From: Homalodisca vitripennis
Lineage: Eukaryota > Arthropoda > Insecta > Hemiptera > Cicadellidae
NCBI RefSeq assembly: GCF_021130785.1
Contig: NW_025776238.1
Span: forward strand, 186,001 to 250,000
DNA: 64,000 nt
Reading direction: 5' to 3'
Position numbers and translations under genes: made by a program. Shown in pieces: positions 16,158 through 59,819 of the stretch (position 1 is the stretch's first letter; the number at the start of each line of letters is the position of its first letter). Under the pieces are notes generated by a model. That model made no database searches, was not told the DNA's origin, and saw only the letters and a list, made by a program, of their open reading frames with translations.

Positions 16158-17940
16158 CAGGGTGTCCAGCAACCATTCGAACAAACTTTGCCACATTGTT
16201 CAGCAGGCCAAAACTAACAACTAATGCAATATAACAGGTGCCCTATTTCGCTTCGTTTAGCGTCTGTCTGTCTGTATGTGTTTTTTGGGGGAAAAAATAC
16301 TACTCAAAAACCACTTAAGATACAGAATTCAAACTTAACAGTTATGTTAACCTAGTGTTGGCCCTTTTCAGTGAAAAATTTAAAACAAATATCTCATTGC
16401 ATATCAAAATGGCGGCCGTTCAAAATTTTTAAATTGTATTAGCTTTGAAACGGCTACTTTGACATCAAATTCACCAGGATAACTTATTTTAGCGTATTTT
16501 ATTACCAATTTAAAAATTTTTGTTTCAATAATATTGAATAAAAATAGCTGAGTTACAGCACCAAACGTAAAAAACAGGTTAAATCCATGCATTGCAAGTA
16601 CATACAACAATGTAGTGGATTTTTACGAATAAACTTTTTAAGGTTCTTTATTAAAATATTGAACAATATTATAACCTGAAATTTAATATTTATTCTTTAA
16701 ATTTGGTTTAAGGTAAATTTAAAAAAGTTCTTAACTAATTGTGCATCCTGGTTTTTAAATCTTAAAAAAAAATGTTAATAGGGCTACGTTATGGTTGGGT
16801 ATAGGGTTTTCTTACATTGCAATTGTGTGAAACAGCGTAATTAATTCAATGTGTTTGAAAAATTTTATTAAACATGATATTTTTTATTAAGAAATAAATG
16901 ATTACATTACTGTAAAACTTTTATAATCGTTGCTCAAAGTGGCGTCCTTGTAACTCGTTGCAGATTCTGAAGCGTCGTATGCACGATTCTCTCACCCATT
17001 CAAAAGGATTACTGTCTTGAATAACTGCAGCAGTCTCAACAACTCTAGCTACTAGATCCATTTCATTCTGTATGGGAGTGGTATACACTAATTGCTTCAT
17101 GTGTTCCTACAAGTAAAAATCAATGGGTGTGAGGTCAGGTGACCGTGGAGGCCAAAGGACGGGACCTCCACGTCCAATCCAACGATCTCCATACAGTTCA
17201 TTCAAATGTTGTCTAGCAATCAGGGAAAAGTGAGCCGGTGCTCCATCGTGTTGGAACCACATTCTTTGCCTAGTTTCAATAGGAACATGTTCCAACAGCT
17301 CAGGTAAGATTTCCCTCAAAAAAAACTTCATAAGTAGGTCCGTTCAGTCTGTTTGGTATAATGTGTGGCCCAATCAAATATCCGTCTACTATTCCACCCC
17401 AGATAAAATGGCTGTTTCGGCTATTAAATATGCCATCTCGAGTAAATGACGCTTCGTCAGTAAAGAGAACATACCTTAAAAAATCGGGTTCATCAACTAA
17501 TTTGTGAAGGAACCAACGAGAGCAGTCTACTCTAAGAGGAAAATCTGCAGGTTCTAAGGCTTGTACTTTCTGATATCTGTAAGGGCACAAAAGTTCTTCA
17601 TTTAACACTTTCCACACAGAACTTTTGCATTCATCCAAATTATGAGCAATAGCGCGAACGCTGGTGGAGGGGTTTTCTTCTACGAATAATAAAACCTCTT
17701 CTTCAAAATCAACAGTCCGTACGGATTTTACCCGTTCTACAACATTATTTTTCAAATGTCCAGTTTCCCTAAGACGAATATGAACGGCACTGAATACGCT
17801 ATGACCTGGGTGCAGCCTATCTGGAAAGCGCTCTCTGTACAATCTGCTAGCTAATCTGGCATTGCCTCCAGCAAGTCCGTACACAAAGTGAATATCAGCA
17901 TACTCTTCAAAAGAAAAACGGTTCATATCGTACAAGAAAC
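16158..17940 (-). mobile_element. Tc1/mariner-superfamily DNA transposon, one end recognisable
   Basis: The element carries the transposase pseudogene at 16921-17926. On the side beyond the transposase C-terminus, CAGGGTGTCCAGCAACCATT begins at 16158 directly after a TA dinucleotide, as expected for a Tc1/mariner terminus inserted at TA. The 760 bases between this end and the stop codon are non-coding. No matching GGACACCCTG was found within 1 kb upstream of the transposase start, so the other end is either lost or too diverged to see. A similar opening (GGGTGTCC...AAC...GACAA...CACATTATTGTTCA) occurs at 33459, suggesting a related fragment there. Confidence 0.7.
16921..17926 (-). pseudogene. 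Transposase, Tc1/mariner superfamily (DUF4817-type N-terminus, DDE_3-type catalytic domain), inactivated
   Basis: This is a remnant of a cut-and-paste transposase, equivalent to about 334 residues and therefore near full length for the family. The N-terminus shows the arthropod DUF4817/HTH signature (FSFEEYADIHFVYGLAGGNA, about residues 4-23, then RLYRERFPDR). The catalytic core follows: FTDEASF gives the first Asp (about 157), QHDGAPAHF the second (about 227), and WPPRSPDLTPIDFYL the third (about 269). The last two have 41 residues between them, a DD41D-like spacing. The C-terminal tail ends RHFEQRL. The start is the ATG at 17926-17924; a TTG three codons upstream also keeps the frame open. 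There are two breaks. A run of eight A on the plus strand (17318-17325) is one base too long and shifts the frame after about residue 202. TAG at 17107-17109 replaces the Trp expected after FYL in this family. The frameshift could be a sequencing error, but the nonsense codon makes inactivity likely. Confidence 0.93.
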
Positions 17941-20900
17941 AAAGTAATAAAAGAAATTTAAATTAACAGGAAAAACTAACAGGAATTACAAAGAAGAACA
18001 GAACATTCAAACAGTGACAATCACGTTCAAAACATAGACTTGCTCAACAATGTCTTGATAGTTTGTTTATTAGTTTTTCTTCATTTAAAACACCTGATTT
18101 GGTTGCTGATTGTTGGTCAGCTGTTTTCATGTAATATTATGCTATTGTTTTTTTAAGAGCATTGTGAATAGTTTGTTTCTTTTTTATTTGTGTGTGTGTA
18201 ACACGTTGATTACTGTAAATGGAACAAAAATGATAGTAATATTTTTTTTAGGTTATAATAATTGTTCAGTATTTTAATAATATGGCCAAATATACACATT
18301 TCACTTTTATAACTTTACTATTGCATTTTATTTTTTTTGTATTTATAGAAATTTTAAGAAATCCCGTGTTCTTTATTAAAAAGCGTAACGACATAATTTG
18401 TAGAGTCGGGTACTGGTTTTAATACTAGAATATTTTATCACCACACAAGTCTTCTTTATTATTAACAATTCATTCCTTTAATATCATCAAATAGTTATTA
18501 ATCACATGATCGCATTGTGTTTGAACACGGATTATTATATTTTTAATTGAGTACAAAAATAACATTAACTTTTCAAATCAATGTACAGATAATTTGAGTA
18601 TTTTTAGGTATGAAAACGTTGAAAGAAACATTTCAATTTCCATGAATAAGTTTTAAATTTTCATGTTTTTAAAAACAAATTTTTTCTAATATTATTGATA
18701 AGAAGTGTAATTTTAATATATAATATTATAAATAGTAGTGTATAATTTAGTTATAATGTTTATATAGACTATTGTGTTACAGTTTTCATGTTAAATATTA
18801 TAAACAAACTTGTGTCTTATATGTGTTACTATTCCTTTTATAACGTACAACTCACTTTTTTTACTGTGGAATTTTTAAAGGAAAATTCGAGAAATCTCAT
18901 TTTAAGAATATTATAGGACTTGAAAGAATTATGATTGTCATGATAATTGGTTTTGATCTAATTATCTCAAAAATCCTTGCGGGTCGTTGTGTATATTACA
19001 GCAGAATATGCTAAATATCTAAAAAACCTATATGACATTGGAGGGACACTGCTTAGTGGCCAACATAATTATCGAACCTTTTTTACTAATGAAATAATTT
19101 TTTTCCGGGTAATTCTGGAAAATACCTCACTGTGCGGTGACACCTCTCACACAATAAACAGTTCGGAGTAAACATGAGACCGAAGCTAGTCACCTTTCTC
19201 TCTGACACATAATAAGCTATTTACTCTCTCATTCTACTGTTTTCGGTCATTATTATCGTTTGTGTATCGATCATAGTAGTTAGTGTTGGGCTAAACGACT
19301 ATTCGACTACATGTTTATTAGACTAGTGCACATAACAGTCGATTAGTCGGTTGATAAGACTAGTCGTAGTTGAACCACTAGTTGTTAGTAATATTTCGAA
19401 TTCCGTTTTCAATGTATTGTAGCGGTTTGCTAGAGCTTATATTCGAAAAATCGACGACTAGTAAATTTATTCAACTGACGGCTTGTTATTTATACATTAA
19501 AGTAAAGAGTAAACTTGTTCATTTGCTAGTAATAATACCCTTCAGATATCACAACAGTGGACCTAAATTAATCGACTTATTTAATCAGTATAGATTTTGT
19601 ATTTTCTTTTTCTACGTACCAAAGATTATCACTCAATAATATTAAAAGTATAAATTAGGTATTTTAACGAAAGTGTTATGTTTAGTAACACCGTAATTGT
19701 TTTTTACAATATTAAAATTATTACAAAATCCTTTTGTACTCTATAGTAGCCTACATCATTGGTTTGAATTATATTATTTGTATTTCTTATTAGAATAATA
19801 TATTTTATTAACATTTTTTGAGATAAGTCTACCCCTTCTATCATTTGCTACTTGTTCGGCTACTTGAAAAAATCTTTTAGAAGAAACCGGCATGGCTAGC
19901 AAGCACTCATACATTTTCGTAAGTAATAAGAATCTGAAATAACATCTTTTTAATTTTTTCATCACTTGTAGTAGTGACGTTTACAGTGATTATTTTACTA
20001 TTTTGGTGTACTTGTCACGTATGGTTATTATCAATTTGCAGAGCTGTAGTTATGGCTTCCCATTTATTAAAAATTATTAAATTATGAGTGTACTTCTCAC
20101 GTTTAGGTAATTAAGTGATTTCACATAACGTCAAAAGTACTCAATACGTGTCACGAGCTCTTAAAAACAACTTCTATTGTGTCTCGTACAAATTATTCTT
20201 ATAAACTTATTAATCTTTATTTATTAATTGGTTTATAATCAAAACATGCTATGATACAAACATTAATTAAAAAAAAATACTTAATTCAAAATAAAAGTTA
20301 AAGCAACAAAAAGTATAACACTTTTTGAAAGCAACTCTATAGAGAAATATTTAACAAGTATAGAGTGAGGTTGAAGTGGAAGAGCGCAAACAGATAAATG
20401 GAAATATAATCTGTTCAGTATTTGTAGCTACACGTTTCGAATATCCCTATACAACGCATGATATGAATCAATTTCAGGTAATAACGTTTCTTTCATCAAG
20501 TTGTGATATTTGTAATAGATATTACTCCAAAAATATTTGTATATAATACGTGAAATATTGTAGAAATCGTTTTAATGTGCTACATTATTAAAGGTAATAG
20601 CTACATATACAACTAGATGTCACAACTATATTGGAGAATAAAGCGTACCAATTTATAGCACATTAATGACGACGTAAACAAACTTAAGTGGTCTGAATCT
20701 GAAAAAGAATACTTTGGAGGCAGAGTTCAAAGGAAAGAGGAATAGTGAGTGAGTGAGTGAGTGGATGAGTTGGGATATAGAGAGGGTGATATAGGATGGA
20801 GGGGAGAGAATGTTCCTCATAAATTGTTTTTGAGAAAATGTTCACTTGAAATGATAACATACACATTTTGGGCTCTATCTTGCTGGGATATTGCTGTTTT

Positions 20901-23069: not shown

Positions 23070-24018
23070 GCTGCGTGCCATGGTTGAAAGGAATGTGATT
23101 TGAAATTCTGATGTGAACTGAGAAGCTTCCTATTCAACACTGAGATATCAAATGTCGGTGGTGGTTTAAAAGTTTTAATCTCAGCATTCAATCCTCTTTC
23201 ATTGTTCCCACTAACAGGAACGAGACTCGTGCCGATATTCTAAATAAAGGTAGGTTCCTAGCATTTGTGAAGTAGGATATAGTCATCGGAAGAAAACTCA
23301 TATGAGTAATTCATTCTGTCTTGTGTTTCCTCATGATTCAAAGGGCAACATTATCTGGAACTCTAAGGTAAACTATGAAACTTCCTACAACTCCTAGATA
23401 ACATATGGTTATTTTTAAAATTGAAATGTCTACACTCAATCCTGCCTCATTGCTCCAACATAAATTCCACATTGCCTCAAAGCAGGACTTTACTATGTAG
23501 AACGATATGTTCCTTAGCATATGAGAGATAAGTTATCGCCATTTACAAAAAAAAAAAAAAACTACATCTCGATATCTTATTCCACCTTGTTACTCCGTGT
23601 AATATTTCATTTACAGTACTCCTAGAGGAGCATTTCCATATAATGCCCTAATGTTTAGTAGGAAGGATCTCACACGAACTCAGATGTAACTTATAACGAT
23701 AGGGAAAATTCCCATATCCACACTCAATTCTGGCTCGCCCACTAAAAGACTGAATTCGACATAGCCTCCAATAGGAACGTCACTAGGATCTTTACCATTG
23801 TTAATGGTATGTTCCTTAGCCTCTGTGATGTAAGTTGAGGGAATTGGAATAAAACACATATCAGCATCTTATACTGTTATGTTGCTCCATGTCAAGTACT
23901 TCTATAGGAGCGTTTTATGGAACCCTGATATTGGCTAGGAAACTTTTTACAAAAACTATGAGGTAACATATAGTGATTTGGGAAATTTCAAACTCCGCAA
24001 TCAACCCTGTCCCGTTTC
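23070..24018. repeat. Degenerate tandem array, roughly 280-bp units
   Basis: The same ordered landmarks return several times. A segment like CACTCAATCCTGCCTCATTG occurs near 23185, 23433, 23722 and 23996. A segment like ATGTTCCTTAGC...GATAAGTTA occurs near 23252, 23508 and 23808. A segment like CTCCTAGAGGAGC occurs near 23620 and 23908. Spacing is about 250-300 bp and the copies are clearly diverged, so this is an old array. A 14-base poly(A) interrupts the middle copy. The minus-strand frame at 23338-23520 lies within one unit and does not persist in the others. Confidence 0.75.
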
Positions 24019-24423
24019 TTAAGGACTGCTTTCATATATTGCCTGCAATCGGGCGTCATTCAGAAGCCAGAAAAGAAAAGTAAAATTTCTCAGTAATTCT
24101 GAGGCAAGCCGTAGTAATTTTACCACCTCTTTGCAAATTGTTATTGATGGTATCACCATATGATTGTATATGTAACATTTCCAAAGTGATTTCCTGAGGA
24201 GATACATGTCCAATCGATAAAAATCCTTATTTATAGAACAATCTTCATCCAGATCACTAATTTTGTAAAATAGATCGTTGCACATAAAAAAGGAACACAG
24301 AAACCGATCGAATGTTATAACCTCCTCCTTTTTAGAGTCAGTAAAATAAACATCAAATTCACTTTCAAGGCAATAAGCTACAGCAAATGTATATTCCTCT
24401 TTAATCAAGGCATCATAAGTCAT
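24019..24423 (-). CDS. Unassigned 134-codon open frame
   Basis: An ATG-initiated frame of 134 codons ends at a TGA at the edge of the degenerate tandem array. It is the longest non-repetitive ATG frame outside the transposase and is unusual for DNA this AT-rich. The composition is mixed and plausible for a protein: acidic residues in the first half (DSKKEEVITF, DLDEDCSI) and a leucine-rich second half (KLLRLASELLRNF). I recognise no domain. An in-frame TGA sits just upstream of the ATG. No TATA box, splice signal or polyadenylation signal was identified as clearly its own. It could be chance, a decayed exon or a gene fragment. Confidence 0.3.
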   Translation of the reverse strand: MTYDALIKEEYTFAVAYCLESEFDVYFTDSKKEEVITFDRFLCSFFMCNDLFYKISDLDEDCSINKDFYRLDMYLLRKSLWKCYIYNHMVIPSITICKEVVKLLRLASELLRNFTFLFWLLNDARLQAIYESSP

Positions 24424-24530
24424 AACTCAACATGTGTAAATTAAGCCAAAACTGCATAGAATAATACGTCTTATATTCCAATGTCTTTCATTCCTAGAGA
24501 TTTAATTAGGGTCCTACACTAACTTCTTGG

Positions 24531-24768
24531 CAAATGACGCAGTGTAGCGGGTACAACGGTTATCACTTGATAACCAGATCAAGCAACGTCGAGCGTGGCG
24601 GCTGCTTGGATGGGTGACCGCTGAGTGATCCTGTCCTTGCAGTCCGCCTGCCCGGCCGTTGCGTTGGTGGTGGTTCGGAAGTCACCTTTAAGCAGTTGGT
24701 CCCCAGGTGTTAGAGAGAGCTTCTTAGCCCTAACTTCGCCTGGTAAAATAAGGTCTCTACTTTACTTT
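24531..24768 (+). mobile_element. 5S-rRNA-derived SINE (SINE3-like) with target-site duplication
   Basis: The 5' part copies the internal pol III promoter of 5S rRNA. GATCAAGCAACGTCGAGC (from 24577) matches the box A region and CTTGGATGGGTGACCG (24605-24620) matches box C. Their spacing is 25 bases from AAGCAACGTC to TTGGATGGG, as in true 5S genes. The sequence then leaves 5S completely (CTGCCCGGCCGTTGCG..., GTTCGGAAGTCACC..., TTAGCCCTAACTTCGCCTGG) and ends TCTCTACTTTACTTT, which marks a SINE rather than a 5S gene. ACTTCTTGG flanks both sides (24522-24530 and 24769-24777) as a 9-bp target-site duplication. Such SINEs are mobilised in trans by LINE machinery. Confidence 0.9.
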
Positions 24769-24789
24769 ACTTCTTGGAATCGTTTCGTT

Positions 24790-25140
24790 TGTTCGTCTGT
24801 TTGAGCAAAAACTATTAGTAGAATGTAGAGAATTGAAATTTGGTACATGGCTTCCTCTTGCTCCAAGGATGAAAGTTATTTATTTTGGGATTGAAATTTA
24901 AATGGGGTGTATATCTATCTGTACTCCTGCCCGTCTGTGTAATGCTAGAAAGGTCCAAGAGACTTTAAACTTAGAATATAGGATTCTCTACGTCCATTCA
25001 GTAACGCTATTTATTTTGAGGTTAAAATGTAAAAGGGTCCTGGTCGCCTGCCCGTATGTGCGATAAATCTTGAAAGAAAAGGTCCTAGAGGCTTGAAACT
25101 TGGAAATTTATCTTGTTCGAAGAATTAGCTCTGTTAATTT
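24790..25140 (+). repeat. Degenerate tandem repeat, three units of about 120-138 bp
   Basis: Three diverged units share the order CGTCTG(T) ... GAGANTTGAAACTTGG ... TATTTATTTTGNGRTTRAAAT. The CGTCTG/CGTATG landmarks are at 24794, 24932 and 25053. The array starts directly after the target-site duplication of the SINE. The TCTGTCTG/ACTTGAAACTTGG wording resembles a motif family seen elsewhere in the window (32862, 40013). Confidence 0.7.
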
Positions 25141-37200: not shown

Positions 37201-37386
37201 CCTTATTTTTAATCAGAGGTTCACATATAAGGGGAATATGTGATTAAAAGAAGACTTCTCGAAGGTAAATGTGATTTTGAATAGTATGTAAGTTACCTTC
37301 AATGCGGCTCTATATTGAGTGAACTTGAGTGAATATTCTTACACCACAGTGCTCGCCGTCAACGTGTTCAACTACTGTACAATAAC
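31216..37386. other. AT-rich non-coding stretch with isolated repeat fragments
   Basis: No supported gene. Noted: GCCACCAGACGG at 32415, shared with 60263; a TCTGTCTGTCTG...TTGACTTGGAATTTAGCATG fragment at 32860-32930, typical of a dispersed insect repeat; GGGTGTCCCCCAACTCTCTG at 33459, resembling the end of the 16158 transposon; TATGTTGCAG at 35101 followed by 33 open codons; and a 96-codon plus-strand frame at 36181-36471, opposite a 78-codon minus frame, with no recognised domain. Confidence 0.45.
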
Positions 37387-38725
37387 TGTCAGCTATAATA
37401 CATGTAGTTAATACATTTATACATTACAATAACTGTATAGCTATAGTACATGTAGTTAATACATTTATACATTACAATAACTGTATAGCTATAGTACATG
37501 TAGTTAATACATTTATACATTACAATAACTGTATAGCTATAGTACATGTAGTTAATACATTTATACATTACAATAACTGTATAGCTATAGTACATGTAGT
37601 TAATACATTTATACATTACAATAACTGTATAACTATAAAACATGTAGTTAATACATTTATACATTACAATAACTTTATAGCTATAGTACATGTAGTTAAT
37701 ACATCTATACATTACAATAACTGTATAGCTATAGTACATGTAGTTAATACATTTATACATTACAATAAATGTATAGCTATAGTATATGCAGTTAAACATT
37801 CACACATTACAATAACTATATAGCTATAGTACATGTAGTTAATACATTTATATATTACAATAACTGTAATATAGCTAAGTACATGTAGTTAATACATTTA
37901 TACACTACAATAACTGTATAGCTATAGTACATGCAGTTAAACATTCACACATTACAATAACTATATAGCTATAGTACATGTAGTTAATACATTTATATAT
38001 TACAATAACTGTAATATAGCTAAGTACATGTAGTTAATACATTTATACACTACAATAACTGTATAGCTATAGTATATGCAGTTAATACATCTATACATTA
38101 CAATAACCGTGTAGCTATAATACATGTAGTTAATACATTTATACACTACAATAACTGTATAGCTATGGTATATGCAGTTAATACATCTATACATTACAAT
38201 AACTGTAATATAGCTAAGTACATGTAGTTAATACATTTATACACTACAATAACTGTATAGCTATAGTATATGCAGTTAATACATCTATACATTACAATAA
38301 CCGTGTAGCTATAATACATGTAGTTAATACATTTATACACTACAATAACTGTATAGCTATAGTACATGCAGTTAAACATTCACACATTACAATAACTATA
38401 TAGCTATAGTACATGTATTTAATACATTTATATATTACAATAACTGTAATATAGCTAAGTACATGTAGTTAATACATTTATACACTACAATAACTGTATA
38501 GCTATAGTATATGCAGTTAATACATCTATACATTACAATAACCGAGTAGCTATAATACATGTAGTTAATACATTTATACACTACAATAACTGTATAGCTA
38601 TGGTATATGCAGTTAATACATCTATACATTACAATAACTATATAGCTATAGTATATGTAGTTAATACATTTATATATTACAATAACTGTAATATAGCTAA
38701 GTACATGTAGTTAATACATTTACTG
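37387..38725. repeat. 48-bp minisatellite, about 27.5 units, with higher-order structure
   Basis: The unit begins ACATGTAGTTAATACATTTA and ends GCTATAGT; starts at 37400, 37448, 37496 and so on are exactly 48 apart. Units 1-8 are nearly identical. From 37784 the array mixes at least four variants: one with TTAAACATTCACACA (47 bp), one with GTAATATAGCTAAGT (50 bp), one with ATATGCAG...ACATCTATACA, and the standard form. These recur in an ordered pattern, so the distal half has a higher-order arrangement. Because 48 is divisible by three, the minus strand shows long repetitive frames (YKCINYMYYSYTVIV); they are by-products of the repeat. Confidence 0.97.
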
Positions 38726-59162: not shown

Positions 59163-59819
59163 TTGCCAGATTTATTTGACGTGTTGGAAAGTAAACGGCC
59201 TTTTCTGCTAAATAATTCTCATTAATGGAACTTTTAAATCATTTTGATTAAAATATCAAATCCATAGTGAAGTTTTTGTTTTGTTTAGTGCAAAGTTTAC
59301 GACAAAGCACAAATATACAAACAAAACTGGCAGATTTATTTGACGTGTTGGAAAGTAAACGGCCTTTTTCTGCTAAATAATTCTCATTAATGGAACTTTT
59401 AAATCATTTTGATTAAAATATCAAATCCATAGTGAAGTTTTTGTTTTGTTTAGTGCAAAGTTTACGACAAAGCACAAATATACAAACAAAACTGGCAGAT
59501 TTATTTGACGTGTTGGAAAGTAAACGGCCTTTTCTGCTGAATAATTCTCGTTAATGGAACTTTTAAATCATTTTGATTAAAATATCAAATTCATAGTGAA
59601 GTTTTTGTTTTGTTTAGTGCAAATTTTACGATAAAGCACAAATATACAAACAAAACTGGCAGATTTATTTGACGTGTTGGAAAGTAAACGGGCTTTTCTG
59701 CTGAATAATTCTCATTAATGGAACTTTTAAATCATTTTGATTAAAATATCAAATTCATAGTGAAGTTTTTGTTTTGCTTAGTGCAAAGTTTACGACAAAG
59801 CACAAATATACAAACAAAA
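59163..59819. repeat. Four tandem copies of a 164-bp unit
   Basis: Units start at about 59167, 59331, 59496 and 59660 (CAGATTTATTTGACGTGTTG). The copies differ at only a few positions, for example one added T in the second, AATTCTCG in the third, and CGGG against CGGC in the fourth. The unit ends CACAAATATACAAACAAAA. The high identity points to recent expansion. No coding frame continues across the units. Confidence 0.97.

Follow-up and report, generated by a model that had tools for sequence, protein, structure and literature searches.

The literature that we searched describes 5S-derived SINEs in few insects. The moth elements HaSE3, PxSE4 and PxSE5 combine a 5S head containing boxes A, IE and C with an unrelated body and are flanked by target-site duplications, and HaSE3 and PxSE5 have 3' ends in common with known LINEs, according to two reports (PMC3272025, PMC8010984). 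SINE3-1_TC of Tribolium castaneum is another insect 5S-derived SINE, named in two papers (PMC3272025, PMC7245038), one of which says that LINEs of the I clade seem to mobilise it. Planthoppers are reported to carry SINE-like sequences (RPSlS) with a SINE3-1_TC motif, about 100-300 nt long and present in thousands of copies, and a copy of about 300 nt was reported in the iridovirus IIV-6 (PMC6401454). In the Homalodisca vitripennis genome paper, unclassified repeats are put at about 18% of the genome.

Analysis of a 64,000-nucleotide stretch of H. vitripennis DNA (hereafter the window) revealed a 238-bp insertion at positions 24531-24768 of the + strand, located between exact 9-bp repeats. The insertion is very probably a retroposed copy from a family of non-autonomous 5S-derived SINEs (SINE3 class) of sharpshooter leafhoppers (Hemiptera: Cicadellidae). 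It resembled the moth elements in having a 5S head with internal boxes, an unrelated body and target-site duplications, but PxSE4, PxSE5 and their relatives were given as 294-389 bp long, and the moth tails as (TGA)n or (ATGT)n instead of the ACTTT units found here. Comparison with the planthopper RPSlS, which also come from Auchenorrhyncha and carry a 5S-derived SINE motif, and with SINE3-1_TC, likewise an insect 5S-derived SINE, was made by published description alone. The literature searched, which did not extend to subscription journals or Repbase, yielded no description of a leafhopper 5S-derived SINE in the text available. As far as these searches show, the element represents a new leafhopper family of a known, uncommon and ordinary kind, and leafhoppers would join the few insects mentioned above. 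The copy in the window indicates where the 5' end of the family probably lies, can serve as a probe for its copy number, and can be compared with the planthopper element that has been reported from the insect iridovirus.

The features of the locus are as follows.

24522-24530, no strand: left target-site duplication ACTTCTTGG, whose final G may equally count as the first nucleotide of the element
24531-24768, + strand: SINE of 238 bp, sitting between the duplications; the family is seen in H. vitripennis gene models
24530-24622, + strand: 5S-derived head; 24552-24622 corresponds to 5S nt 24-95 in the local alignment, with a weaker match before it (nt 1-23)
24558-24575, + strand: perfect inverted repeat GGTTATCA/TGATAACC inside the head
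24581-24591, + strand: box A-like motif AAGCAACGTCG, from the fly 5S alignment
24603-24621, + strand: box C-like motif TGCTTGGATGGGTGACCGC, from the fly 5S alignment and a mismatch scan
24623-24702, + strand: body without 5S similarity
24703-24743, + strand: predicted 3' stem-loop, in which CCAGGTG (24703-24709) pairs with CGCCTGG (24737-24743)
24740-24741, - strand: antisense AG of CCAG/GC (the slash marks the boundary), a putative 3' splice site that would make 24739 the first base of the exon
24744-24768, + strand: 3' end, TAAAATAAGGTCTCT followed by two ACTTT units
24769-24777, no strand: right target-site duplication ACTTCTTGG, an exact repeat of the left one

The element and its boundaries

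The 9-bp sequence ACTTCTTGG was found at 24522-24530 and 24769-24777, bracketing the SINE exactly as originally predicted. A 9-mer taken at a random position of the window recurred 200-280 nt further on in 0.13% of cases outside tandem arrays and in 1.1% when the arrays were included. The predicted length of about 238 bp was also borne out, and became 239 bp if G24530, which is common to the left repeat, was counted. The GC content of 24531-24768 was 53%, compared with 30.6% for the window. The longest reading frame inside the SINE was 60 aa, so that no long frame was present, which fits a non-autonomous element. The window held one copy of the SINE, since blastn returned the element itself and its own 18-base inverted repeat only.

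The 3' part of the element was no more similar to 5S than shuffled sequences were, as 1024 of 2000 shuffles did as well against fly 5S and 1234 of 2000 against human 5S, in agreement with the earlier statement that this part is unrelated to 5S. The predicted fold of the whole element was better than that of shuffled sequences (z -3.27, with 1 of 200 as good). At the 3' end, the duplication ACTTCTTGG itself begins with ACTTC, directly after the two ACTTT units, and the first TTTT was located at 24883, past the end of the element.

Origin of the head

The head was aligned with the 5S sequences of Drosophila melanogaster and human. The local alignment of 24552-24622 with fly 5S nt 24-95 had 52 identical columns out of 72 and a score of 30, compared with a maximum of 16 among 2000 dinucleotide shuffles. 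The human 5S score was 21 against the same shuffle maximum of 16, with a match that was limited to the 41 columns spanned by boxes A and C. The stretch from box A to box C was free of gaps in the fly 5S alignment. AAGCAACGTC started at 24581 and TTGGATGGG at 24606, so that the two boxes were 25 nt apart from start to start with 15 bases between them. The same start-to-start distance of 25 nt was found in the D. melanogaster 5S gene. The internal promoter boxes were thus at native spacing as claimed, with the 25 nt measured from start to start.

The original prediction had placed the boxes correctly and had understated the extent of the 5S part. The local alignment already began 29 nt before box A, at 24552, and a global alignment extended the match to 5S nt 1. 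The start of the element, GCAAATGAC, agreed with 5S nt 1-9 (GCCAACGAC) at 7 of 9 positions, and the first 24 nt showed a moderate fit to 5S nt 1-25 (42 of 5000 shuffles were as good). Taken alone, however, the part of the head 5' of box A was weakly matched, being equalled by 36 of 2000 shuffles with fly 5S and by 1913 of 2000 with human 5S. The match probably reaches back to 5S nt 1, as judged from these alignments. The Rfam 5S model gave no match to the element even at an E-value of 10, and for this reason the 5S origin rests on the alignment to the fly sequence. We read the Rfam miss as likely to reflect truncation at nt 95 together with the loss of 5S structure, and the 5S assignment is one of sequence similarity.

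Copies in H. vitripennis gene models

The antisense frame at 24582-24761 was compared with 5.8 billion proteins and gave seven matches up to an E-value of 10, all seven of them H. vitripennis proteins and two with E <= 1e-3. A second query, made of several frames joined together and partly built from the first H. vitripennis matches, gave 93 matches up to an E-value of 10 among 2541 candidates. All 93 were again from H. vitripennis, and 76 had E <= 1e-3. Every one of the 100 proteins mapped back onto the element at E <= 0.001, and 95 of them extended beyond the SINE by 20 residues or more, with flanks that fell into 84 groups. The family is multi-copy, with many dispersed copies in H. vitripennis gene models, and the window element is not a single-copy sequence. 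The matches were antisense in 97 of 100 cases, an excess that was left uninterpreted because the queries were mostly antisense frames.

P0004 and P0005 each spanned the body into the head within one protein. Among the 36 places that read through to the 5' end, 28 continued with PL and then diverged and 8 did not, and the 5' end of the family would therefore lie at about nucleotide 1 of the element. The window copy had been expected to define both ends of the family. These read-through copies supported the 5' end, and the 3' end was supported less; the relatives were seen as translated gene models, a view that leaves their duplications and 3' tails outside. The window copy had 79% protein identity to the first of seven aligned H. 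vitripennis segments and was frame-shifted relative to several H. vitripennis copies. Its earlier description as structurally intact is fair as regards its parts, but in sequence it departs from these copies by substitutions and apparent frame shifts. The window copy is thus a diverged one and probably no longer active.

Alternative origins and proposed retroposition

A 5S gene or a tandem 5S array was rejected for this locus because the covariance model was unmatched, box C was single and the element occurred once in the window. The Rfam 5S model had no match anywhere in the window, where a scan allowing 3 mismatches likewise found one box C only. The fact that the head is 5S-derived and that one copy is present in the window would also suit a retroposed 5S pseudogene or a relic of a 5S array, repeated by chance and not a SINE. 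This explanation is hardly credible, since the similarity stops at 5S nt 95 and is followed by a body of about 145 nt, body and head are jointly common to the H. vitripennis copies, and both a second box C and an Rfam match are absent from the window. Scarcely better placed, and still very improbable, is a chimeric head in which the first ~22 nt would be tRNA-derived and joined to a 5S promoter. The best local 5S alignment does not include these 22 nt, and the inferred H. vitripennis head contains TGGCGCAGTGT, one mismatch away from an A-box consensus; however, roughly one shuffle in two gave an equally good A-box match (990 and 997 of 2000), no B box was found, ARAGORN found no tRNA, and the first 24 nt already fit 5S nt 1-25, at the level reached by 42 of 5000 shuffles. 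With neither a single-copy sequence nor a 5S cluster at hand, the reading of the element as a 5S-derived SINE was upheld.

For such a 5S-derived SINE, TFIIIA and RNA polymerase III would act on the internal 5S promoter of source copies to transcribe them. The reverse transcriptase of a putative partner LINE would take up the resulting RNA, probably through recognition of the 3' stem-loop and the tail. Target-primed reverse transcription would then insert the SINE and produce the 9-bp duplication.

Antisense boundary and possible exonization

In primates, exonization of antisense Alu elements makes use of a pyrimidine-rich stretch and a 3' splice site that are supplied by the SINE. Alu is 7SL-derived and ends in a poly(A) tail, whereas the AG considered here belongs to the 3' stem of a SINE with a 5S head and is known from gene models alone. 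The H. vitripennis models P0001-P0007 and P0128-P0220 held antisense pieces of the SINE, many of which started at CCAG/GC. A motif pattern held by 50 of the 100 proteins defined 50 places that read the antisense 3' stem (EVRAKK-like). The similarity stopped exactly before this stretch in 37 of them and ran on (ILPG-like) in 8, while 3 were ambiguous and 2 were N-terminal; leaving aside the two that start too near the N-terminus, the boundary was seen in 37 of 48. Three of the 37 boundary places (P0002, P0138 and P0217) had just 3 residues upstream. On the minus strand of the window copy, the boundary read CCTTATTTTACCAG/GCGAAG, with the AG at 24741-24740.

The residue before the boundary was S, G, C or R, as NGC codons give, in 32 of the 37 places, compared with a background of 27%. 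This bias would also be expected from a subfamily ending at that base and is no proof of splicing by itself. Splicing is favoured because the AG stands on the very spot, 8 copies (perhaps 3 more) read past it, the window copy does likewise, and the gene contexts agree. Models with known domains that carried SINE pieces were ADAM17-like, TBC, trypsin, ZER1-like and gustatory receptor proteins. In the TPRA1-like isoform X2 model P0142, the SINE began at residue 389 of 446, past the membrane domain at 52-301. The SINE segment of P0173, an ADAM17 model, occupied residues 106-167. Human ADAM17 aligned strongly with 170-431 and weakly with 39-97 (5.7 bits, i-Evalue 41), and no more than 8 chain residues separated the two aligned stretches.

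We tentatively suggest, with doubt prevailing somewhat over confidence, that the SINE may serve as an antisense exon donor in sharpshooters. The stem would provide the 3' splice site TTATTTTACCAG/GC, the antisense strand would often be open, and copies in antisense orientation within introns would repeatedly be spliced in frame into real proteins, with the ADAM17, TPRA1-like isoform X2, ZER1-like, TBC-domain and trypsin-like models as candidates. The weakness of the upstream ADAM17 match tells slightly against this exon-donor role. The H. vitripennis annotation behind most of the matches comprises 98,296 gene models, RNA-seq-trained but in part ab initio, and its authors acknowledge possible over-prediction. 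A search of the literature at the level of titles found no paper on such SINE-derived insect exons. Use of the antisense splice site in real mRNAs, if it occurs, would offer a testable insect counterpart of Alu exonization.

Searches outside insects

Three pattern scans of viral contigs gave 0, 0 and 1 stretch. The single stretch (L001) was a 20/21-base match with a blastn E-value of 3e-5 in a 1.7-kb locus, otherwise matched over at most 14 bases, and was taken as chance. Two protein scans of viral contigs gave 20 and 19 pattern stretches, none of which was confirmed. Among bacterial and archaeal contigs, the pattern matches L002 and L003 had at most 17 bases per piece and were likewise taken as chance. 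Phages gave 3 records at E 0.8, and plasmids gave 1 record at E 0.2. A sequence-string search of papers returned matches that were unrelated, as judged by their titles.

Neighbourhood of the element

Just upstream of the SINE, 23417-24020 contained two degenerate copies of about 280 bp arranged head to tail (score 69.5, the highest shuffle score being 30.5). Just downstream, 24827-25060 was a degenerate tandem duplication of about 120 bp (38 against a maximum of 23), for which a possible third copy was marginal (19 against 18). An open frame of 135 aa was located at 24022-24426 on the - strand, about 100 bp from the SINE and on the strand of its putative antisense exon, and had no Pfam match.

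Further away, 17303-17962 on the - strand encoded a transposase-like frame with a DUF4817 helix-turn-helix, and 17110-17343 looked like its continuation. The best E-values for this frame were obtained with metagenome proteins (61% identity over 92% of its length), but two H. vitripennis models showed the top identities, 97% over 28% of the frame and 87% over 34%. Two tandem arrays were also present in the window: 37378-38722, with 27.9 copies of a 48-bp unit and a higher period of 435 bp, and 59167-59819, with 4.0 copies of a 164-bp unit at 97% matches.
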